64,000 bases of DNA from Sphagnum magellanicum (taxonomy: Eukaryota; Streptophyta; Sphagnopsida; Sphagnales; Sphagnaceae). The number at the start of each line of letters is the position of its first letter. The stretch's first letter is position 1. Below are positions 103 to 59,240 of this stretch, one piece after another. The notes under the pieces are model-generated. The model was not told where the DNA came from. It saw only the letters and a list, made by a program, of their open reading frames with translations, and made no database searches. The position numbers and the translations under genes are program-made. The stretch is taken from the NCBI GenBank assembly GCA_021904315.1, contig CM038911.1, positions 1,118,501 to 1,182,500 of the forward strand. Reading direction: 5' to 3'.

Positions 103-3100
103 CTGGAAATTTGCAAGTGCAGAAAGACCAGATGCTTCCTCTCCAAACTCCTTGCCAAAATACTTTTCAAGACCTTTTAGTTCTGTGGGGCATTTGATCT
201 CCAAACCAACTGGTGGCATATTTCGTGTTTGTCGACGATGTTTTGTGGCCATGGGTGAAACACTTTGTATAGCTTCAGGATAAGTTAGATCCCCATCTAA
301 ACTAAGCCCTAACTTTGTTCGTAGCATTTTATTCTCTTCTCGCAAGTGTGCTATTTCCTTTTGAAGTTTCATCATGATCTGAAAGGAGGATTCCAAAAGG
401 AGAGCACATTATACACATATACTAACAACAAAACACAGGGGTTAAAACTAAGCTGCCACACCTGAACATAATACATATGGTGTAGACAAATATGGGTCAA
501 TCAACTTTCATTGTCATCATCCCCCTATTCCCATGTTCAATTCTACAGCTTATGAAGGTCATTGGGTCATTGAATGATTCAAGTGCTTGTTGAAGGTACA
601 TGATACAGCCTCCAGTTTCAATCAATCACATGACTCCATATATGATATTACTTCTTGAGTCAATACTTTGGTGTTGTTGTGCTAGTCATGACCTTTTGGT
701 GCTTCATGTGTTTTAAAAATTATCTTGATGTACACAGTCTAAACAGAGGAGGATGATTGTATGCATGGCAATGGAGCATAATTTGTGTCTTAACCCATTC
801 CTTCTGTTAAAAGTGGGCACTTTCCAACCACCTTAATGATGCATTAGGGTTTCCAGTGTTTTCCCAAGAAAACAAAACATCTCCTTTCAGAGTGTTCTGA
901 TTGTGCAAATTAAGGCAAACTAAATGCCCAAAAATGAGGCCCAGCACCCTCCAAATTTTATTGCACAGTGATTAGCTTATGTCAATGAATAAGGAATGGT
1001 TAAGCTCAACAGAACTTATAAAAGAAATACCTTGTCACGGGCATCCATGTTGATTGAAGGAGCATTGACAATATTCTTGGCACATGTTGCATAGTGTAAG
1101 GTACTGAGTGTTTCATCAACTGCAGAGGCAGCAGATGAGACACAAGCTATCATGAGGGCCAAGCTATTTCCTCCAAGACTTTCCATCAATAGCTTTGTCA
1201 GCATACTTTCCCTGTGAAACATGTAGATGGATAAAAGAAAAATGGTTAGGGTAGCACACAGTTAGAATCTGTCACAAGTGAGTTTGTTCTCCAATAACTT
1301 ATCTAGTAATCTCCAATAGATCAATTAATGTGAGCTAGAACAAGGAGAATGGGAATACATCATTGTTTGCAAAGGTGAAACCATCAGTGGTAAGTTTATT
1401 TTGTCCTTTCTCTATGTCAGGTTATGGAAAGATATTCACAAGCTTCTTTTGGGCAGTCATAGTAGCCTTCATATGACAATTACAAGGTTTCAATTCCTGA
1501 AATTGAGAATCAGATATGAAAAAGCTGTGTATCAACACACTAAGTAGGTAGCTGAGGAAAGCCTCATCAGCTACCAAAACATGAAGCAGGGTCAAAACAT
1601 GGGCAAAAACAAAAAATGTGCTGCTAGGACACTTAATCCAGGGCACCGCAAAGAAAAATGTTAAGTAATCTGTGCACAGATTGTGTTGTGACCAAGGAAA
1701 ACCAAATTTTCTCGATGAAACTCCATGCATTTGGTAGAAGAATCTAACCTGTATGGCACCACATCACCTTTCTTGCCTTCACTCAAAGCTGAAATGACCT
1801 GCAGAAGAACAATGGATAGGATGGTAAACTTCAAGGCAGTCCAGGGTTGCCTCAAGACTGCAGAATCAAGACCAAATGCACTTCAACATTTGAAAGTTTG
1901 GATAACTTTTTCCTAGATATGAGAAAACTTACTTGTATATTATATGATTGGAAAGCTCTCTTTCGTAATCAAACAGCATGTCATAAGGAAAACAAAAGTG
2001 GTACCAAACAGAGCAAATACTCCAGACAGAAAGTATGACTTACTTTTCCAAGTGTGAATAGAGAACGATTGATGCTACCAGTTTCCTTCAGCATCTCACC
2101 AGAGCTTTTGCTTTTTTTAAGTCTTTCACTCCCTGCAAGATCCACAAAAAGCATGCGACCATACCTGCAAATTTATGGGGGATCAGAATCAGGCAACCTA
2201 AACCATGTAAAAAAGATGTCTAAAGAGTTGTCAAGCCATCACACCAAAGAAAGGGTGTCTGCTGAGGGTTGAAAGAAATAGAGTGGGAGGTTAACATAGA
2301 CTACAAGCACATGTTTTCTTTTCTACATCAGCATTGAATCAAATGTGGATTTCAGAGGATAGTATAGCAGGTATGACTTTGTGACTAGGAAAGTAATTTG
2401 GTCATATTTATGGAGATCTGAGCTGATCATGCAACAGATGTTTCCACACATTAAGAGCTTGAAGTCTAAGGCTTGTAATGGTTGAGGTATACCTCACAAT
2501 GGGATGTCCATCTCCAGTGATGTCACAAAGTGAGTCCACATGGAGTGTCATGATGCAATGGCTACGACTACTATCCTTGTTCAACTCATGTGAGCCAACC
2601 TGCACAAATGTGGTTTTCCACAATTTCTTACAATGCAGTAAAAATTTCTTTCTCCCATGAAGTCTCATGAAGCAAACATATCCAGTACACTTTCAAATAA
2701 GATGTAGCTGGATATTTTTAACCTTTCGGTTCTTGCCACCTTCATTGAGAACAGAGAAAACATCCTCCAGTGTATCACAATCCACCAACAAAAGGTTTTC
2801 TACATAGAATCCATCTCTGGAGCTCCATTTCACATCCCTTGGTGCAGCATCAAGACGAAGTAAATCATTCACCTGCCCCAGGTTTGCAATCTCATACAAA
2901 ATCTGCTGATGTATAATTTGTGGCATGTGCACCCTTGGAATCACAGTTGCTTGGTACTAATTTGTTTTGTTGATGCAGCTATTTCTATTACCAGTTCAGC
3001 ACTTAAGACTAGCCCCAATTGATGTGGATCTCTGTACCTGTTCACAGTAGATTTCAAAATATGAAGCTCTCAATGTATAAGGCTTTGTTTGGTCCTTGTT

Positions 3101-4815
3101 GAAGGAGCGAGCTTTAATGGCTTCAAATAGATAAATTGCAGACCGTGCAATAAGTCCATCATCCCCCCAACAATCCTCATAGCCTTTTTTATCATGCATT
3201 CCCTACAAGGAAGACAGAAAGCCCAATCAATATTCTTGAGTACAATGTAAGGTAGGTCAGACTCATGGGATATTGAACCCAGCATGAAGGGACAAAAAAG
3301 ATAGTCCACATCTCAGATAACTGGTGGTCTGTTGGTCTACATTGCTTAAGGTATTGGCCAATGACAATGTACACCACAAGAATAAACAGCAATCAAGAAG
3401 ACAACAAGAAGCATATATGTTATTGTGTCTGAGTGGACCTAACCTCTTCTCTCCCAGACATGGTGAAAGTCTTTCCAGAGCCAGTTTGCCCACATGCCAT
3501 GACTGTAGATGAATAACCTTCAAGCACCTTGTCTAACAATTTCTTCATCTCCACTGTTTGCATGACTTCATGTTGTTCAGCTGCCGGGCCAACACATCCA
3601 TCAAACTGCCATCATGTGATTCATCAATCAGAATACTTGATCAATTGTTGCAAACAACATTGCACGTGGAATCCATGCGACTCAAAAAGAAAGAGTTCTA
3701 TACCTGTCACACTAGTAATCTACCATATCCTCTTCTCAGACACACCTTCGAGAGTACATACCTAAAAGTCATGCTCATAACATTCCTAAAAGTTTTGCAC
3801 ACAGCCCCCTTCACAAATTTGCACAGAGACCACCTAAAAAATCTGCAAAGTACAAAGTTTAAATTTTCCATAAGGATATTGCAAACAGAATTATACGGGA
3901 CATTGATGTTTCCTATGATTTAAACCTTCTATTTGCACACTTTCAATGGTAAAAACTGTGGCTCCTTCCTGTGCAAGTCTCTGTCTATGTGGGGAGGTTC
4001 AGATGTCAGTTCATCAGAAGCTCAGAGAGCTTTATTGTGCACTTACAATGGCCAGACACAATACAAAACCAATTGCTTTGTTATGTCCTCTCGACACCAT
4101 GCAAAAAAACTAGGATTATTGTGAGTAACATGGAGTAGCTGCTGCTGATATCCAACTTACTTGAAAAGAGCGAGTTGTTGTGTTGTATCCATATCCTTGC
4201 TCCACAACCTAAACAGGTCACAAAATATTTCACAAAAGCAAATCAATATCCAATGGCATGACATGACATACTGTGGACAATGACAGCCAGCTCAATGTCA
4301 ACTAATTGAAAATGCAAGACAGAATTGCACCTAAACCTCAAATGAGATGCAGAAGTGCAAAGCATGGCAACTTGAAACCAAACACACATGACACATTTAA
4401 ATATAATAACATGTACCATAATGAATTAGGCAACAGAATCTGGGATTGTATGCATTGAATGTATGAGTTCCTCAGATGTCTGTCTTGTAATTACCATATG
4501 TACACTGCCATAAAGGATCTGTATATGTTCTGTTTATCTCTCCCATAAATTTTGTCTCTGAGAAATCCACATGCATTGATTGTAGCTTTGGAACTGGGAG
4601 CACAGGTTCAAGGCCCCTGAAGCTCCATATCTCAAGCTTTGCTATTTTGTGAGACTTTGATTGTACATATTGAGTTGATGCCTCCTTTTACTTACCTTCA
4701 CAGAGTGTTCGTCCCTTGCTATGTGGACACAAGAAGTTTCTCCTCGAGCATACTCATCCTTTGAGAGAGGCCGTATCCTTACATACACCTTGATGTTGTT
4801 TGCAGATCTGAACAT
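103..4815 (-). CDS. Kinesin motor protein, KIF12-like, 3' end outside window
   Basis: Microtubule motor ATPase. Ten exons join in frame on the minus strand: 4815-4696, 4208-4161, 3605-3444, 3202-3038, 2872-2723, 2599-2493, 2164-2044, 1798-1749, 1211-1031 and 378-103, all with GT-AG introns. They give 460 residues before the window edge. The P-loop GQTGSGKT is at about residues 95-102, switch I (NKDSSRSH) at 222-229 and switch II (DLAGSE) at 259-264. After the motor the neck ([19 protein letters not shown]) looks like a coiled coil. No motor segment is missing, so the gene appears functional. Stretches such as [32 protein letters not shown] and [11 protein letters not shown] resemble animal KIF12 as I remember it; that family call is from memory. 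The ATG at 4815 lies just before the motor; a CTGCAG acceptor upstream allows an earlier exon, so the true start is uncertain. The last exon ends at a donor at 103, and the stalk and tail lie beyond base 1. Confidence 0.93.
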
Positions 4816-5203: not shown

Positions 5204-5388
5204 TACTGTGACAACAAAGTGCTTCATGAAGAACGTCATGTACTGTGACGACAACAAAGTGCTTCATGAAGAACGTCATATACTGTGACAACGAAGTGCT
5301 TCATGAAGAAGGTCATGTACTGTGACAACACAGTGCTTCATGGAGAAAATCATATGCTGTGACAAAGGACTTCATGAAGAACTATGTG
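5204..5388. repeat. Minisatellite, five copies of a 37-40 bp unit
   Basis: Tandem units begin at 5204, 5241, 5281, 5318 and 5355. Each starts with a form of TACTGTGACAACAAAGTGC and continues with CTTCATGAAGAACGTCAT. The second unit has a 3-bp insertion and the last is shortened and most diverged. It lies about 400 bp upstream of the kinesin ATG. Confidence 0.9.
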
Positions 5389-6930
5389 CGAAGGAACAGG
5401 TTTACTACCTTCTTCCTTCTCATTTTGATATTCGTTGCCGTTCTCTCGTGCCTTGAATGACTGTGTCGCCATTTTATCTGCTTCTTATGCGATCTCCAGT
5501 AGGAGGGAATAGTGTTGTTCCAAACAGTTTTGGCAAAATCCAATTCTTACACTTCCTTATGATGGTACTCTTTCACGAGGTTACTATCAACGTTGCTAGG
5601 ATTCCAACACCATACTATGGTATGCACCATTATCTGCCGTGTCTGGAACACTGCAAAAGCTGCTGCACAATCTCACTTGCCTTCTTCATCTATGTTCCAT
5701 AATCCTGATCAATGACCAAATTCCAATTTGTCTCTCTACCAAGGCGTGAAGAACTTGCTTGCTGACTTCTCAAATCAAGCTCCAAACCTTGGCATCGATT
5801 CTCCTCCTCCTCCTCCTCTTTTCCAAGCATCTCAAACTTGTTGGATTCATCCTAACTAGTGACAGTCCACAATCGAAACAAGAGGGAAGGTATAGTGTAC
5901 TTCTCTGTTTCCTGAATGTTGCTCAAAGCCAATTGCAATATCACGGTTTGTGTTTCCTATCCTTGTTATAGATCCTAATTTGCAGTCCCATCGCCTTCTC
6001 CATTTCTTGTCTGTATCTGAAGTTCAATTCTACACTGATGTCTTGTCGTAAATCTGGTCGTGATCACGGTGTCAGAGTCCTGTTGAACACAGGAAACTAG
6101 TCCTCAGGAGATCGGGGCAGGTGCAAATCTGTACAGGATTCCTTTCTCAATTCAGCGATTTTTGTCTTGCATGAATATGAAGCGGCCCTTGTCTGCCCTA
6201 ACCTAATCGAGCAGCAGCGCTTGATCTTTGCAGATCCTTTCCGTGCAAGCATTCCGCTTTCTTTTTCATGATGTTCAACAAGCTGGCTATCTTGCGAGAG
6301 ACGACTTTGAGGGAGGGATATGTAGGAAGCAGAAATTTTTATACGTACAATCGACAACACAGCAGTTGGAGACTACTTCCGCTAGTTTGATTCACCGCTC
6401 CGCATGCAAACTTTAGATCGATTGTTCAAACTGCAAATCTGCAAACTTATTTTCCGTGGGTGGTAGTTGAGTTCCCTAGAAAGTCCAGTCTTTTGGGGAT
6501 GTACAACAAAAGAGAGATCTGCGGAGTCGGGACGGGCGCGCCTGGAACAGAGAGTGCACTGCACCAAATTGGGTGCATTGAGAGAGCCGCTGACCATCGG
6601 GAATATGCATGCCTTCCACAAAACTCTATCAGAAAAAAAAACCTGGGCAGACAACAACAGAGGTTGAATTAACAAAGGATCAATGAAATATGACAAGAAA
6701 GCCCAGCATGTGCAGTTTTAGCACCGTGGTCAGAGGGGAAAATTGGTAAGGACTGGGGGTGTTAGAGGTGTGTGAGGTGAAGGCAGTTGGTGGCTTGTGC
6801 CAACCAACTACCTCTTTTCACACAACCACAAACAACCCTACATGTTTTACACTCACTGCAGCAGCCACCCAGCTGGTGTCAACTCCAAGCAAATCCACCT
6901 CTGTAAACAAATACTGAGTTCCCCCGGGAT

Positions 6931-7053
6931 GCAGGATTCTTGTTTCCACTTTGTGTCCCACAGGAGCAGCTGTAGGATTCTAGTTTCCACTTTGTGTCCC
7001 ACACGAGCAGCTGTAGGATTCTCATTTCTACTTTGTGTCCCACAGAAGCAGCA
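6931..7053. repeat. Three tandem copies of a 41-bp unit
   Basis: Units at 6931-6971, 6972-7012 and 7013-7053 share GTAGGATTCT and CACTTTGTGTCCCACA with a few substitutions each. The array lies about 560 bp downstream of the synthetase stop codon, between the two minus-strand genes. It can be read as an open frame, but only because the 41-bp units happen to lack stops in some frames. Confidence 0.9.
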
Positions 7054-7613: not shown

Positions 7614-10600
7614 TCACTTATCCTGGAGACCAATGAGCTGATCAACAATGCTGGGATCTGCCAGTGTACTGATGTCACCTAGTTCATCCAGCTGTTTGGC
7701 TGCAATTTTCCTCAGTATTCTCCTCATGATTTTCCCACTCCTTGTTTTAGGTAGGCCAGGGGCCCAATGGATCTTGTCTGGTGCTGCAAATGGTCCAATC
7801 TAGCACAAGACAGAGCACCGATATTCAGGTCAAATACACAATCAAGCAATGGCATGCACAACTATTAGTCTACAACTACCTCTTGGTGGGTTCAGAATCC
7901 AGCAATTTGAAGTCTTGGCAAGTGGCACAAAGAGATGCCATAGCATTCACTCTTAAAAGATGTGAACTCCTTATCCTTACAAATCAGACCTACTTGTAGA
8001 TGGGATTTAGAAACAGCTGTTAGCCATAAATGTCCACGTACATGGGTGCGCACAGCATTAACCAGACTTGCCCGAAGCTGCTGACTGTACTCCACTCCCT
8101 CAAGAAGTGTGACAAAGGCATATATGCCTTGCCCTTTTATCTGAAAGCAATAGAAATATCATTGTCAGTATCAATAACTTTCACTACAATTTTGAAGTGA
8201 CCTCAGTAACAAATAGGACGTTGTACAACAGAAACAATTGCACACCAGTCAAAATTCAGTTTCTCAATGGAAGTTGGGACATGTAAGTGAATATTCCAAG
8301 CCTTGGATTATTGGCACCAGAGCACCCTCATGTGCTATTGGCCTTACCAAGTATGTGGTGATTTGGTGTGAAGGATATGGAGGGTGTAGAACCGGGGAAG
8401 CTAAGTACATGAAGACCAGCTAGCTGAGACAATTCAACTGGAGAATCCCATGTGCCTGGGATTGAAGTGGCCCTTGATGACTTTGGATAAACATTACAGA
8501 GCAATGTGGCACAAGCAAGATCTATTGATATGAAGTGCAGAAATTTCTTGTAGAGCATACACACAAAGGGAAACCATGTACCAAAAAGATGAAAAAAGTG
8601 AAGTGTCAACAGTAACTACAACCCAAGAGAAATGATCTACCTCATGATCAAATCCAACAACAGCTGCCTCAGCACATTGTGGATGAGACACCAGAGCTGA
8701 CTCAACCTCTGCTGTGCCAATCCGGTGCCCACTAAACCTCCCACCACAAGAACCCAGTCAGAATCCATGCTTAGTAAAGAAAATGCCAAAGCTACCTAGA
8801 ATGGACTGAGTTGGTGCCAACTTATAAGCAGCAACCAAAATGTGCATGTTAGAAGGCATGGCATAGGTTGCCCACTATTGAGAAGAAATTAAGAAGGAAA
8901 ATTAGCATGAAAATCTCAATAAAAACACACCTGACATTGATCACATCATCAACTCGTCCAGTGAGCCAATAATAGCCATCTTTATCCCTGCCAACAGGAT
9001 CAATTTTGCTTCAAAAAGCTCCAGAGAGATAAAAACATGATTTAAAGAGTTTCACAGCACCAAAAATTCTCATCATGGCAGTTGCTCAACAAAACAACCC
9101 AGGGTTGAACAAACAGAGTTTCAACTTGACCTATCTGCCATGCTATTTAGCTAATATGGGCAAAGTTCTATTTGATATATGATCAAAAGATGCAACTCTG
9201 ATATCCTGGTGAAACCTTGACCAGATACCATGACAATGTCGAGTGAAGGAAACTATATGTGAACTAACAACTGACCTGCGGCAACCATCACCACTAAAGT
9301 AAAACCCTTTAAATGGTGCAAAATATGTTGTTTCATAGCGTGCATGATCTCCTTGAAGGGTCCTCATCATGCCAGGCCATGGTGCTTTGATACACAAATA
9401 GCCACTGCACTCACCAGAAATCTCAAGTCCATTCTCATTCACTATTGCTGGCTGTCAAAGTAGCAGATGCATTAGTACCTTGGAGAACCAGCTTGCCAGA
9501 TACGAATAGCAGAGAACAGGTACCACATTGAAGTTTTCCCAGCTGAGAAAGTTGTAAGAAGAATCTGTAATATAGTGCTCTAAGAGAGTGTGAGGCACTT
9601 GCTCTGGACCGTCAACATACAAACTGACAATTTATAGTACATTGACTTGGGGACAAAACTGTATTGAAGACTTGACTGCAATTGAAGACAACTGCATTGT
9701 ACCTGGACACCAAAAAATGGGAGGGTTGCAGAGCCAGGTTTCAGTGGCCAACCACCTGGCAGTGGTGTGATCTGGGTAGCAACAGCACCATCCACTTCTC
9801 TTAGCAGAGATACACAAATACTTAAACAATCTAATTTCTAATAGTGGAGCTTCTAGACAGAGATTCTCACAATATGTCAAAGACATTTACCATGAAGCCA
9901 CCCGTCTCAGTTTGCCACCAGGTATCTGATATAGGGCAACGTGAATCACCCACCACATCATAGTACCACCTGCCCCCAACAAAGTGAACATCTCTCCTTG
10001 AATATCACTAACAAAAGTGCATGTGGGCTTGGTCATCCATGCATTGCAGATCAATAAACCAAATTGACCATAATGGCTTTACAGTATCTTCAAATGCAGA
10101 GGACTCGGCTAAAATAAGATCCAGCATGGGCAGCTATTCAATGTTATCTCTCTAGTTACTGCAAGTTGTTTTGCAATATGGTCCATCCTTACTGATGTAG
10201 TGTGAATTGGACAGACAAGCAAGGAAATACACCCTGGAGGGAGATAAATGGAGGAAGGGTTTACAGTGCCTTGCCTCCAAGCACTTGGATTGATTGGCTC
10301 TCCCACACTCCCCAAGACTCGTAGTGACTTCCGTGAATGCCGCTTTACAGGCTGTTGACAAAATTTACAATGATACATTATCAGCTGGCTTCCACAACAG
10401 GAGGGAAATTGTGATTGAGTGTCCCCAATTTGAAAAAGAGCTATACTTCTTTTGCCCTGCAACACATGCTTAGAATTTCCAAGTCAAGGCAAAGACTTAC
10501 ATAAACATTGTGAATCAACTGCATCACTAACATACCTCATTGCCAGACCGCATGAGAGAGCGGATTGCAGTAGGAGCAGTGTAGAAAATGCTAACTTTAT

Positions 10601-13600
10601 ACTTGTCAACAATCTCCCAGCAACGTCCTGCATCTGGATAGTTTGGCACCTGCCCATGAATTCCACCCAATCCATCTAATGTAAAGAGTATGACATAGCC
10701 TTCATGCCAACTACTTGGAAATCACTCGGTGAAAAGAAGGATGAAAACGAGTCTAAGTGGGTAGAGGGATCAGATGCACAGAACCAACACTGCTCATCTC
10801 TCATCAGAAAACACATTCCAAATGTCCAAATCACCTGAGCAATTTGTCCATGACATAACCACAGATGCTTCCAAGCTCAAACCCAGGAGCTTATTCCACC
10901 AACCAACATATACTTAAGTATTGGACATAACTGTTGCTTTTGATCGTACATAGATTGAGACACACCAGACTTGCAACAACCCCAGTTTGTACAACCTTAA
11001 TTGATGTATTCTACTAAGCACAGCACATCATGAACTGTAAGATACTTACCCCTTCAAAAACAACTATGGAGGCTCCATTGAGTAATGGGCCATATGTAAG
11101 GTAGCTGTGCCCTGTGATCCACCCACAGTCAGCTGTGCACCTGCACATTCACAAGTTTCTGTATAAAGGACACAATTGTCTGATGAACCTTTGCAGCAAG
11201 AATTTTCAGACGTACTCATCTTCATGCATCACTCTTGGATTCAAGACTTGATACAAGCAGGAGGTATTCACCCAGATGTATTGTGAAGAACACTTCCCAA
11301 AGCTTGCCACCTTGTGGGCAGCTGCCAGAGGTTATACATAAGAAAAATACATTTTAGAAGCCAATTAACCACTTTCTACAGTTGATAGAAGAAATACCAA
11401 TAAATATCATCATCATGATAGTCAAATGCATATTTAAAGGTTGTAGCCGTATAGACCATATAACCTCCTGTTGTGTGCAATACACCCTGCCAATTTGTGA
11501 CAAAAGAGACACACAGAAGAAATTGTCAGTGGTTTATAAGCATGCAGACATCATTACTTTTCTTTCCCAGTTCAAGTGCTCTAGTTTTCATGCAGCCTAC
11601 AATCACAAAAGGTCCATTCTGGTACACTTCATGGACTAGGCATGAAATGTCAAACATGAAATTTTTATTTGACAGAGACGGGAATATGAGAGAAGAGTAG
11701 TTCTCATAGCATTTTTCATGTGATGACAGATAGATCATGCATCAAATTTTATCCCTTGTCATCAGGAGATTTTGTGAAAGGTTTTCAGAATAAGAGCCAA
11801 GAATTCAGTTGAATGTACTTTTGGCTTCCCAGTGCTCCCACTTGTGTAAAGTAGGAACAGAGTGTCTTCTGCATCCATCCATTCCACTGCACTCTCCTTT
11901 GGATAGTTTGGTACAACATCCTGCAATGTTTGTTTGCATCTTCATATGAGAAAAGATGACAACTACCCAATGTGGGAAGGCATAGCAATTGGTAAGGAGA
12001 TTCCAGGAAAACAGGTTCCATCATCAGCAATATAGACCAATTATGCATAAAGATGACTCTTGGCTGAAAGGGCAGTATTTCCACACAGAGAATAATATCT
12101 CTCTGATCTAGGAATCCAACAGAGACTTATCCAGGGCTATAAGATCAGAAGATAGAAGAGAGGGTAGAGAGCAGGTCAGTAGACCTTAAGATGCACAATT
12201 GAAAAAACAACATATCAAATGTACAAACCATTAGAACTTTATGAGGTTAGATGTTATTCCTGGGAGCAACAACCTGCCACCAGATATCTCGGCCTTTTTG
12301 CCATGCTGTGTCCTCCCTCTTGACAGCTGAGTCATTTGCATATGTCAAACATGTACCTGTGCATAACAACCATTAATGCTTGTGTGGCCCCTTTCTTGCC
12401 TCGTTCTTAATGTTGCTGCATTTTCATGGCAAAAATCACAACCATTAATCTTTGCCTCATTCTTAATGTTTATGCATTTTCATAGCAAAAAATGTTCTAA
12501 TGACACAAGTTCTGACCACTGCAACAAAATGGGACCCATGTTCATGGGCTGTTGGGCAAAGTGCGAGAAATTGGGGACTACTTGTAAAAGGCGAAGGAGG
12601 CACAGGGACAGATGTGCTCTTCATATTACTCTGGAGACAATAACATTTTAGAGAAGACATTTTACAGACTGGTGTACTACTGTAAAGGGCATACCAACTG
12701 CAAACCCTTCACTGAGCACACGTTGCAAGGCATCATCAACAATTTCCTTGAGTTTGATAACTTTGGAACCTCGACGGACACCACTGGTTGTCAGTACAAA
12801 ATTGGGCCTGCAGTCCAAGATTCGCTGTGATAGTGCCTCTGCTGAAAACCCAGCAAAGACTACCTGCTCACAAATGCACCTCAACCTTGTAAGTGTGGAG
12901 TAAATAACTATGAAGAAAATCTGGTCCAGAAGGCAGAAACATGCACAGCATAAGTCCCAAAGCTGTATCACCCTACACCTCAACATGATGGCAGACAGAG
13001 AGGGTTATGACATTATGCCAGAAGCAACAATGATGTGCAACAAGGGACCACATTCTTACTGAGTGAACAGCTCCAATACGTGCACAAGCAAGCATGGCAA
13101 TGGGCAGTTCAACAAGCATGGGCATGTAAATAGCCACTGCATCACCCTTCTTCACTCCCTGATCCCGCAGGTAATTTGAAAGCTGCAAAAGGCTCCAATG
13201 AGGCATATCTATGAGATGGCAGAGAAGACTCCACAAGAACACTTTGAAGGTAACTGTTGTATCACTCCAGCAAAAAGAGTAACACAAAAAGAATGAGTGT
13301 GGTCATAACCTTGTAAGTTTCACTCACAAACTATCCAAACATCACCATGAACGGCAGGGACTAGCTGCCATGACTTCCCACTGACTTCATCAGCTCCAAC
13401 AGTGGCTGTAGATAAGCATATAATAATCTGCCAAATTTGTCAGGCAAACCAGTATAAGAAAATCTGCATCCTGAGCTTCTGTTGCAATTTTGGAAGCAAG
13501 GTTTCAATAAGACCTGTGAATTCAGACAAGTCTGATTGATACTGCAGGGATTCTTAGATGAGTCATGCAAATTGAAGATAAGAACTCAACAGACAATCAT

Positions 13601-56095: not shown

Positions 56096-58811
56096 TTGCA
56101 AGGATGCCCACCAATAATGTTAGAAAGCTGGGCTCAGATAGCCACTCGTGTTGCTCCTGTGGGTGTGCCAGCTTTGAACCCTTCTATACTCACCTAACAT
56201 GTGTCAGTCAAAAGCTTACCTAGTGTAGCAGCAAAAGCAAACGCAAAAAGGGAGTGAGGGGAAATAGGGGTGGACCAAAACTAATTCTTTGATTGAATGC
56301 TCCCCAACAGAAGATGGATATAATATTATTATTGACTGTAGAAGACGGTAAGAAATCACAAGACTCTGAACTTGTACCCCGGGAACTTAACTTATTTATG
56401 CTCAATTTTAGAGGGAACCTAATGAGAAATTGGTCTCCCCCACAACAACAGTAATGTCCAATTGCCTTGCACATATGTTGTATGCATCCAGCATGAAAGG
56501 AGGGGGAGAGGGGCTTTTGTGCAGTAGTTCTTCTAAACATCCAAGAAGTGTGAATTTATTGCAATAGTGGCTTTAAATGTATAAGGCAGTGCCCCAGGAG
56601 CACGGTGTTCCTGAAATAAGCACCTGCACTCTGGAACTGCTCTTCTGAGGGTGTTACCCAACATATTTAACATTGACAGAAACTTGTTACTTTTCATTTG
56701 AGGCATGAAAAAACACCAGCGATATTACACAAAATGCTCGTCTGAGCAGGTGTTTTGTTTTTCAAAAATTGCCGTGCCTCTTGGGAAGGAAAAATTCTGC
56801 TGGATAACTAGCTCTCAAGATACACTAGAAATTTTCTGCTGCTGCTTTAAGTCCAAGTATATTTATGGATCCAGAACTGACAATATGTATGGATCCGGAA
56901 GGGGTGGGATGGGGTGGGGTGGGTTGTTTTGGTTTTGTTTTTTTTTGGAGCCGTGCAGGAGTTCTTCTAAAGGTGAAAGGTGAAATGGGTTTAGGGTTTC
57001 AGAATCAGAGAACCGCGGAATCAGAACTAGCTGGTAACTACAACTACTCAATCCGAGCTCATGAGTAAAGTACTGGTTCTGGACCCCAGCGGACCAGCAG
57101 AAGGAAAGGCCCATCAGCAGGCCAGATGATTGAGGAGGGGGTGACGTGGGACGGGCTCATTTATTCTTGCGGAGGAGGAAATTGGCAGTCGCGTTGAACG
57201 AGTCATTAAGAGATCGATCGATGGTTGAAGCCAAAAAGAAAACGCCTTTGGAAAAAAAAAAAAAAAACTGCAAAAAGATAAACTATGACGGCGGTGATGC
57301 ATGCATATATGCGCGCTCGCTCACAAGAAACAAATTGCAGCCGGCGAACAACAGCAGTGGGCTTCCCGGGGTCCGAGCCTCTCTGAAGGTGTGGTCTGCG
57401 CGGGACCCAAAGTCACGGCCATTGTTGTTTTGATTCTAGAGGCTTGAACTGTGTGTTCGGTGCATGACTGGGGCCCATTGAAGGGAATCAGACACCCATT
57501 AGTTGGCTTTGACTGGGAAAAAGAAGAAGAAGAGCGGCACTTGATGGTGCCATATTGACGTCAACAGCGCCGCATTCCCATCATTGCTCGGGGTATGTTA
57601 CATGCATACGGACAAGCCGCGTACCTACAGAAGGACCGTACCTGATGTCTCCATCTAGAAGGGAAAGACGTGTGTGGCAGAAGCGTACTTACATGGTATG
57701 TATAGAACCCGGGGATTTGATCCAAGCTGGGTGTACAAGTCTAGTACAAAGGCTGAAGGGTAGCTGGAGATTGAATGGTTGTGCTAGTGATAGTCTGGGC
57801 TTGGAGAAGGTGTAGCTGGAAGTGGCGATTGAATGTGGTCGGATCATTGATGACGGATCAGGGGCGGGCCAGAAGGACCACTGGCACTGGGCAGCATGCA
57901 GGAAGAAGCACTAGCTAGCTGCTGGAGTTGTTCCGCGTGGCCTGTCACTTTGTGCCTGATATTCCTTCAGATTCGGAGTCTTCCTTGAGATCTACGGGTT
58001 CTCTTGCGGCTTTCCTTCTCGTCATCACTCTATTCTGAACGTATCCACTTGATTCGGATTCTAAGCGAGTCTATACTTTGGTGTTTTGGTCGCTGGGAAA
58101 CCGGAAGCGAGATAGAGCACATTTTGAAGCCACATCCATAATCCATTAGCCAACTAGTTTCAGTGAGAGAGAGAGAGTCTCCGAGAAAAAGCAACCGGAA
58201 AAAGAAAAGAAACAATATGACCATTGAGGAGGCGTGAAACCATGAATTTATTCCGAAGGTTAGACTATTAACGGCCAATGCAAGGCAGCTGGGAGGATCA
58301 GATTACACATTGAATCAGCGCGGTCAGATGTTCAGTGCATGGAGTACTGTGCAATCCTTTGATGAATGCAAAATCCGTCACTAGCAGCTGGCAATACTGA
58401 TGTGCAAGGATCCGCTCGATCGGCTACGTTGGTACATGAATCTGCTGTTGCACCAGGAGCTTCCATTTCTGCGATGCAATCGACAAGTACTTGTGCATCG
58501 TCACTTATTTTAAAGGTGCATATATGTAAATCTCTTCAAACTGTTGCCAGCCAAACTACAAGCAGCCCGACAATACATGTCAATGTTGGCCTCAGAAGAT
58601 CATGAATGTCTTGAATTGCTGCAGGCTCAAACGTCCTCTTGATCTCGTCGAAGTTTGGTTGATTTCTTCTTGTTGGTAACGAGGCTGGAGTATATTCCTG
58701 ACCCAGCACGACTTCAGCCGAGGTAAAGTGTAGCGTGTGAATTGTTTCAAGAAGATCTATCCATCTAAGAAACAGTTTGATCTGTTGCGTTAGCATCAAC
58801 GTCGGGGCGAC
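56096..58811 (+). other. Intergenic DNA upstream of the glutaredoxin
   Basis: From about 56.9 kb the composition is less AT-rich and the sequence looks single-copy. It probably includes the glutaredoxin promoter. A perfect palindrome TTGACGTCAA (57555-57564) contains TGACG, the core bound by TGA-type bZIP factors, but it is 1.25 kb from the ATG and may be chance. Open frames on both strands lack recognisable domains. Confidence 0.5.
56584..56625 (+). repeat. Dispersed short repeat, copy C
   Basis: GGCAGTGCCCCAGG, followed by GTGTTCCTGAAATAAGCACC, parallels 59998-60037 downstream of the glutaredoxin. Further right, GTGTTTTGTTTTTCAAAAAT (near 56750) parallels GCGTTTTGTTTTTCCAAAAT (near 60037), so copy C carries an extra insert of about 120 bp. 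Confidence 0.55.
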
Positions 58812-59240
58812 ATGCAGACTCAGACGCATTTGCAGACTTATCACAAGTTGGGAGGCGGCAAGAAAGATTTTGTGAGTCGGAAGGGAAGTCGAGATCCAAC
58901 GGCGATTGCAATGGAGAAGGTGGAGAAACTGGCGGCGGAGAATGCAGTGGTGGTGTTCAGTCAGAGCGGCTGTTGCATGTGCCATGTGGTGAAACGCCTT
59001 TTCTGCAGCTTGGGCGTCGGTCCCACTGTGTACGAGCTTGACGAGCTGCAAAGCGGGGGTAGCACCGATGATCTCGAAAAGGCCCTCATGCGCCTAGTGG
59101 GTGAATCGGCACAGGCGGCGGCGGTGCCGGCGGTCTTTGTTGGAGGAAAGCTGTTAGGAGGTCTTGACCGCGTCATGGCCGCCCACATCAGTGGTCTCCT
59201 CATCCCTCAATTGAAGGAAGCGGGAGCATTATGGTTGTAG
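58812..59240 (+). CDS. CC-type (ROXY-like) glutaredoxin
   Basis: A small thiol oxidoreductase of the plant-specific class III. In Arabidopsis its relatives bind TGA transcription factors in the nucleus and control petal and anther development or stress responses. The single-exon frame has 142 codons. The active site CCMC is at residues 54-57 inside FSQSGCCMCHVVKRLF. Further on come the thioredoxin-fold segments TVYELDEL, VPAVFVGGKLLGGLDRVM (with the cis-Pro that helps bind glutathione) and a C-terminus ending KEAGALWL. The ALWL tail is the motif that ROXY proteins need for TGA binding and activity. I take the first ATG (58812) because about 40 residues before the fold is normal for ROXY proteins; the ATG at residue 34 is an alternative. 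It looks fully intact. Class assignment is very secure; which ROXY subgroup is not. Confidence 0.97.
   Translation: MQTQTHLQTYHKLGGGKKDFVSRKGSRDPTAIAMEKVEKLAAENAVVVFSQSGCCMCHVVKRLFCSLGVGPTVYELDELQSGGSTDDLEKALMRLVGESAQAAAVPAVFVGGKLLGGLDRVMAAHISGLLIPQLKEAGALWL

Follow-up and report, generated by a model that had tools for sequence, protein, structure and literature searches.

Does the kinesin gene at the edge of this stretch of the Sphagnum magellanicum genome belong with animal KIF12, and does it work in the swimming sperm of the moss? The first-pass annotation of the window (the whole stretch of DNA that was analysed, 64,000 nucleotides) had put forward both ideas. Sequence comparisons support the family assignment well, and a role in the developing sperm cell is the reading that we consider probable.

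Structure of the gene

The gene is on the minus strand, occupying 4815..103 of the window together with an eleventh exon just outside it, and is complete, with 11 exons and 616 amino acids. The joined exons give a frame of 616 codons from the ATG (A at 4815) with no in-frame stop before the end; exons 1–10, inside the window, encode 460 codons, and position 103 is the final base of exon 10. The gene model is built from the sequence alone, with exon 11 joined from the adjoining 10 kb. All ten introns are GT-AG, and the junctions are in phase 0 except for two in phase 2, with the frame kept throughout. The first-pass annotation proposed that the exons at 103..4815 join into a full motor, and its end points prove right to the base; the 13-residue and 11-residue segments that it singled out are both present as quoted.

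Exon 1, 4696..4815, minus strand: start codon (ATG at 4815) and first motor strand (10-residue segment), with a GT donor and open frame
Exon 2, 4161..4208, minus strand: GT-AG, phase 0
Exon 3, 3444..3605, minus strand: P-loop GQTGSGKT; GT-AG, phase 0
Exon 4, 3038..3202, minus strand: 14-residue segment; GT-AG, phase 0
Exon 5, 2723..2872, minus strand: family signature (13-residue segment), with W and F in 4/4 members and 0/44 other rows with a residue there
Exon 6, 2493..2599, minus strand: switch I NKDSSRSH; GT-AG
Exon 7, 2044..2164, minus strand: switch II DLAGSE; GT-AG
Exon 8, 1749..1798, minus strand: GT-AG
Exon 9, 1031..1211, minus strand: motor end (11-residue segment) and neck linker; GT-AG
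Exon 10, 103..378, minus strand: short neck coil (19-residue segment, heptad pattern) and start of the tail; GT donor beyond 103
Exon 11, G000:C5:1118395-1117925, outside the window, minus strand: end of the protein with stop codon

The Pfam Kinesin domain (PF00225) matches residues 13–355 with E=1.1e-92 and the best PDB match has E=2.7e-65, values that exclude a kinesin match by chance. The catalytic motifs are all preserved: P-loop GQTGSGKT, switch I NKDSSRSH and switch II DLAGSE. In the tail of approximately 220 residues past residue 396, Pfam finds nothing up to E 0.1. Matches to the Pfam entries 'Chibby' (0.029) and 'dynein AAA_7' (0.018) were below the cut-offs and are taken as coil and P-loop noise.

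Copy number

The genome searched has 438,994,042 bases (approximately 439 Mb) in 31 contigs, and the kinesin protein has 57 matches in it. Once the gene's own exons are set aside, the leading match by E-value has 51% identity over 111 residues and the next 55% over 97, which leaves no second copy among the scored candidates. Among these candidates the KIF12-type gene is single-copy in the Sphagnum genome.

Sequences compared

The human KIF12 motor used in the trees and in the identity and signature comparisons is a provisional sequence, taken to represent that protein; human KIF12 is absent among the 60 matches listed in the PDB searches. As a partial check, p.Met338 of KIF12 is in a motor beta-strand and p.Arg368 is 30 residues on (PMC11914266), and the provisional letters agree, with M and R 30 apart in the expected place. 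Two further KIF12 variants, V204 and R219, do not appear in that paper; if their numbering is right, R219 fits the provisional letters and V204 does not.

Single-sequence searches confirmed no relatives in either viral contigs or genome contigs. A two-row alignment of the Sphagnum protein and the provisional KIF12 likewise confirmed none in viral contigs, and in genome contigs yielded three loci from 68 pattern matches: L053, L054, and the short L055, which was left out of the analyses. L053 is in a record titled Desulfosporosinus, where the standard code interrupts the kinesin frame and gives a single frame of at least 100 amino acids; under the ciliate code (table 6), in which TAA and TAG stand for Gln, it has a 563-amino-acid kinesin frame (Pfam 4.4e-92). 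This suggests that a contig of ciliate origin was deposited with a bacterial assembly. The first motor strand of L053 is in another frame and was left out of the alignment. Of the sequences found, L053 is nearest to the Sphagnum protein, with 45.5% identity over 330 columns. L054 is in a Crocinitomicaceae record, where it adjoins a RabGAP-TBC gene and an enolase gene and has its motor spread over more than one frame, so it too looks eukaryotic.

Besides the window gene, at least 58 kinesin places in the moss genome were grouped by eye among the listed ones of 172 matches; 42 of the 58 entered the comparison and the other 16 were left out. The motor exons of the 42 were aligned to a profile and then joined. 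The trees are without three of the 42 moss rows, L042 because of its length and L031 and L045 as divergent rows removed by hand, and they contain no sequences known as kinesin-6, -11 or -17 and no animal kinesin-1, -3, -5, -8, -10 or -13. Six moss families are labelled by their PDB matches: kinesin-12 (L027), kinesin-9 (L026), kinesin-7 (L028, which matches CENP-E), kinesin-8 (L040), kinesin-13 (L023) and kinesin-5 (L030). The same label search gave no match for L043 and L016 at the strict cut-off used. Others are labelled by their grouping in the 49-sequence tree, namely kinesin-2 L015, which joins KIF3B and OSM-3 at 96.6/99, and kinesin-4 L032, L046, L043 and L044, which join KIF4 with a split at 94.6/99. 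In the same tree KIF15 groups with moss L027, L039, L047 and L048 at 99.2/100.

Family placement

The first-pass annotation suggested placing the motor in a kinesin tree with KIF12 and the plant families, and there it groups with the provisional KIF12. In a maximum-likelihood tree of 47 sequences the two form a clade with SH-aLRT 98.9 and UFBoot 99, and with L053 and L054 added (49 sequences) the clade of four has 99.1/100. With KIF12 left out (48 sequences), the Sphagnum protein, L053 and L054 still form a clade at 99.6/100, though both relatives were found with an alignment that includes the provisional KIF12. The four-member clade persists at 96.2/99 after 42 columns around the signature described below are removed. 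In these trees the Sphagnum gene is outside all of the labelled moss families; support is weak both for the relations within the KIF12 group and for where it stands among the other families.

Placement inside KIN-4, KIN-7 or KIN-12 had been named as the outcome that would speak against a KIF12 relation, and constrained trees reject all three. The tests used 5000 replicates, where the program advises 10000, and the constrained trees came from a fast LG+G4 search and were scored under LG+F+R5. Forcing the Sphagnum protein inside kinesin-12 (KIF15 and the PAKRP1/POK type) is rejected with a delta lnL of 72, inside kinesin-4 (KIF4 with moss L032, L046, L043 and L044) with 88, and inside kinesin-7 (moss L028, L038 and L049) with 151; kinesin-2 (OSM-3, KIF3B and moss L015) is rejected with 80. 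A tree that puts the provisional KIF12 together with KIF15 and plant kinesin-12 is worse by 54 log units and is also rejected (AU 0.0086), but a single clade of the whole KIF12/kinesin-16 group with kinesin-12 loses 11 log units and is not (AU 0.142). Kinesin-12 membership of KIF12 is thus unsupported, and a sister relation of the two is possible.

Neither best-hit rank nor plain identity serves as a guide to the family. The Sphagnum protein best matches kinesin-2 and the provisional KIF12 best matches KIF7. Moss L048 (a kinesin-12), KIF4 and OSM-3 are at least as similar to the Sphagnum motor as KIF12 is (40.3% identity), and by identity to the provisional KIF12 the Sphagnum protein is third, after moss L048 and L042. 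These measures do not reveal the KIF12 relation; the grouping rests on the trees and on a signature in the motor.

This signature, 'KW....GFYVE' in the Sphagnum protein's exon 5 and defined in the present analysis as [KR]W....GF, has its Trp and Phe in all four members (the Sphagnum protein, KIF12, L053 and L054). Of the 48 other rows, 44 have a residue at these columns and none carries either W or F, the four moss kinesin-12 rows included. The neck coil begins 23 residues past the '(S/K)TLxYA' motor end in all four members, and positions 0, 4, 7 and 14 of the coil are hydrophobic in each. The neck coil of the kinesin-2 OSM-3 starts at the same 23-residue distance, so the coil position is more general than the KIF12 group. 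At position 11 there is Asn in three of the four and Ile in L054, and this Asn may be a trait of the family. Taken with the trees, the signature makes the Sphagnum gene a well-supported member of the KIF12 (kinesin-16) family.

Comparison with other kinesins

The Sphagnum protein and animal KIF12 share a common clade, the W/F signature, the neck-coil position and the Asn in the coil, but their motors are about 40% identical and the animal protein is described as acting in kidney, liver and pancreas. Kinesin-2 provides the best PDB matches of the Sphagnum protein (OSM-3 and KIF3B, 224 and 221 bits), yet membership is rejected and the moss has a kinesin-2 of its own, L015. Kinesin-12 (KIF15, PAKRP1, POK) also has an N-terminal motor, and KIF12 is filed there by name; here too membership is rejected, with KIF15 grouping instead with moss L027, L039, L047 and L048.

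Among plant sequences the nearest parallel is KinesinOrph-III of Physcomitrella (Phypa_441202), which like the Sphagnum gene is a moss kinesin present as one copy and falling in none of the standard families. A 2012 moss survey found this one orphan III in Physcomitrella, left it unplaced between kinesin-6 and kinesin-11, and considered that it might be a pseudogene, a warning that arose from a gene model without the C-terminus (PMC3472504). The Sphagnum gene is probably its counterpart, an orthology that we infer, and is complete where the 2012 model of Phypa_441202 has no C-terminal information.

Cilia and published distribution

Kinesin-16 is said to include KIF12, an assignment reportedly made by Wickstead and Gull in 2006. 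To our knowledge, sperm are the only ciliated cell type of mosses. The published distribution of kinesin-16 is confined to organisms that build cilia, and a ciliary role was predicted for it (Wickstead, Gull, Richards 2010, PMC2867816). Kinesin orphan III has been equated with kinesin-16 and recorded in Chlamydomonas, Physcomitrella and Marsilea, with none in Arabidopsis (PMC4947347). In animals, mouse Kif12 is called primary-cilium associated and human KIF12 is luminal in kidney tubules with alpha-tubulin (PMC9953652). For KIF12 in liver and pancreas, scaffolding and enzyme turnover are invoked, and the term cilia does not occur in that account (PMC11914266).

The Sphagnum genome has matches to IFT46 and to a radial-spoke protein, and so carries at least part of the cilium gene set; tektin has no match in it. 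The tie between KIF12 and cilia proposed in the first-pass annotation is backed by the literature and agrees with these IFT46 and radial-spoke matches; the missing tektin match weighs against it. Given where the family has been recorded, a ciliary link of the Sphagnum motor is a reasonable expectation. The consensus site of DUO1 is RRCSGTT (PMC6290024), and no such site occurs on either strand within 1.5 kb upstream of the start codon, with 0.96 expected in shuffles; with so low an expectation the absence says little. The literature searched, which left out most subscription papers, yielded no functional test of plant or algal kinesin-16, and such tests may exist elsewhere.

Dictyostelium is an amoeba that is not known to build cilia. 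A point against the ciliary reading is a Dictyostelium protein named Kif12, which may or may not be of the present family; during cell division it acts at the cortex, on myosin II (PMC6747500).

Proposed role

The most probable reading is that the gene encodes a dimeric motor of the KIF12 family, most likely plus-end directed, that would work in the developing moss sperm cell; its expression in sperm and its ciliary function are what we infer. Its N-terminal motor, in which the ATP-binding and switch motifs are preserved, is followed by the neck linker, the neck coil and the tail of approximately 220 residues. The short neck coil should make the protein a dimer, and an N-terminal motor joined to such a coil suggests walking most likely toward microtubule plus ends. 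Since cilia are what the family is linked to, and sperm are the sole ciliated cells of the moss, the most likely site of action is the spermatid, where the motor could act at the basal bodies, at the axoneme or at the microtubule band beside the nucleus. A more specific version, in which KIF12 and the Sphagnum protein are orthologues of one ancient cilium motor, retained by land plants for use in sperm only, that in plants acts on plant-sperm structures (microtubule band, basal-body array), is tentative, and we regard it as somewhat doubtful.

An unlikely but serious alternative is that this KIF12-family motor does general cytoplasmic work, such as scaffolding of cargo or enzymes, and that its retention in ciliated lineages is incidental. 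The scaffolding of Sp1 and the turnover of lipid enzymes by KIF12 are described in non-ciliary terms (PMC11914266), and the lack of a sperm-type promoter site (RRCSGTT) in the 1.5 kb upstream fits with this. Against such a role stand a published distribution restricted to ciliated organisms (PMC2867816, PMC4947347), the report of Kif12 at primary cilia in kidney (PMC9953652), and the closest relative found, L053, which reads in the ciliate code.

Far less probable is a divergent plant kinesin-12 of the PAKRP1/POK type working in the phragmoplast. Some papers file KIF12 under kinesin-12, and the joint clade of the whole KIF12/kinesin-16 group with kinesin-12 survives the constraint test (AU 0.142); the cost of 72 log units for the Sphagnum protein alone inside kinesin-12, the rejection of KIF12 with KIF15 and plant kinesin-12 (AU 0.0086), the absence of the signature W and F from the four moss kinesin-12 rows, and the published lack of support for kinesin-12 as a family (PMC2867816) all count against it. 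Least credible of all is gene decay or an artefact, along the lines of the 2012 survey's warning about Physcomitrella orphan III (PMC3472504), given ten of ten GT-AG introns, no stop within 616 codons, catalytic motifs that are kept, and signature residues common to the Sphagnum protein and distant eukaryotes.

Significance

Kinesin-16, or orphan III, is already known from moss, fern and Chlamydomonas, and the Sphagnum gene is a new complete member of this little-studied family. It connects a moss 'orphan' kinesin with KIF12 by a simple motif with which other genomes can be scanned, and if it is the counterpart of Physcomitrella orphan III, its intact state counts against the suspicion of a pseudogene. 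As an intact, single-copy moss gene with no close paralogue seen among the scored candidates, it offers a clean genetic test. KIF12 is mutated in human liver disease (PMC11914266), and if the Sphagnum motor is truly an ancient cilium motor kept for sperm, a moss knockout would show what a human disease gene first did, apart from its epithelial roles in animals.

Genes and repeats around the kinesin gene

The window also carries parts of a gene for an AMP-binding enzyme, a glutaredoxin-domain open frame and two tandem arrays, as follows.

5204-5365: tandem array 1, 37-bp unit, 4.3 copies
6933-7052: tandem array 2, 41-bp unit, 2.9 copies
7614-7799 and 12976-13302, minus strand: parts of a gene for an AMP-binding enzyme (Pfam)
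58794-59237, plus strand: glutaredoxin-domain open frame (glutaredoxin domain, 4e-10)

Both arrays are located upstream of the kinesin start codon. The AMP-binding gene adjoins the kinesin gene and lies on the same strand; its pieces match Pfam AMP-binding at 2.6e-13 and AMP-binding_C at 1.1e-4, the latter just under that domain's cut-off, and we take it to be probably an acetyl-CoA synthetase gene. The glutaredoxin-domain frame includes a CCMC motif of the kind found in the plant CC-type glutaredoxins.

Related kinesins in records with bacterial titles

Two of the kinesin loci grouping with the window gene come from records titled as bacterial. The Desulfosporosinus record (L053) reads as protein when TAA and TAG are taken as glutamine, and is apparently a ciliate contig within a bacterial assembly; a second long frame in this record (5939-6700) matches nothing in Pfam up to 0.01. 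The Crocinitomicaceae record (L054), which is 603,575 bases long and bears eukaryotic kinesin and RabGAP-TBC genes, likewise appears to be a eukaryotic contig within a bacterial assembly.

Other kinesins of the moss genome

The kinesin-like protein at L031 (G000:C2:23011700-23013700) has a P-loop reading GQTENENS rather than GQTGSGKT, within an open frame of 577 amino acids free of stops, and is perhaps a kinesin lacking ATPase activity. Two further moss kinesins, L013 and L014, form a pair adjoining kinesin-9 in the tree (SH-aLRT/UFBoot 91.7/95), and this pair is possibly the counterpart of the Physcomitrella orphan class I.
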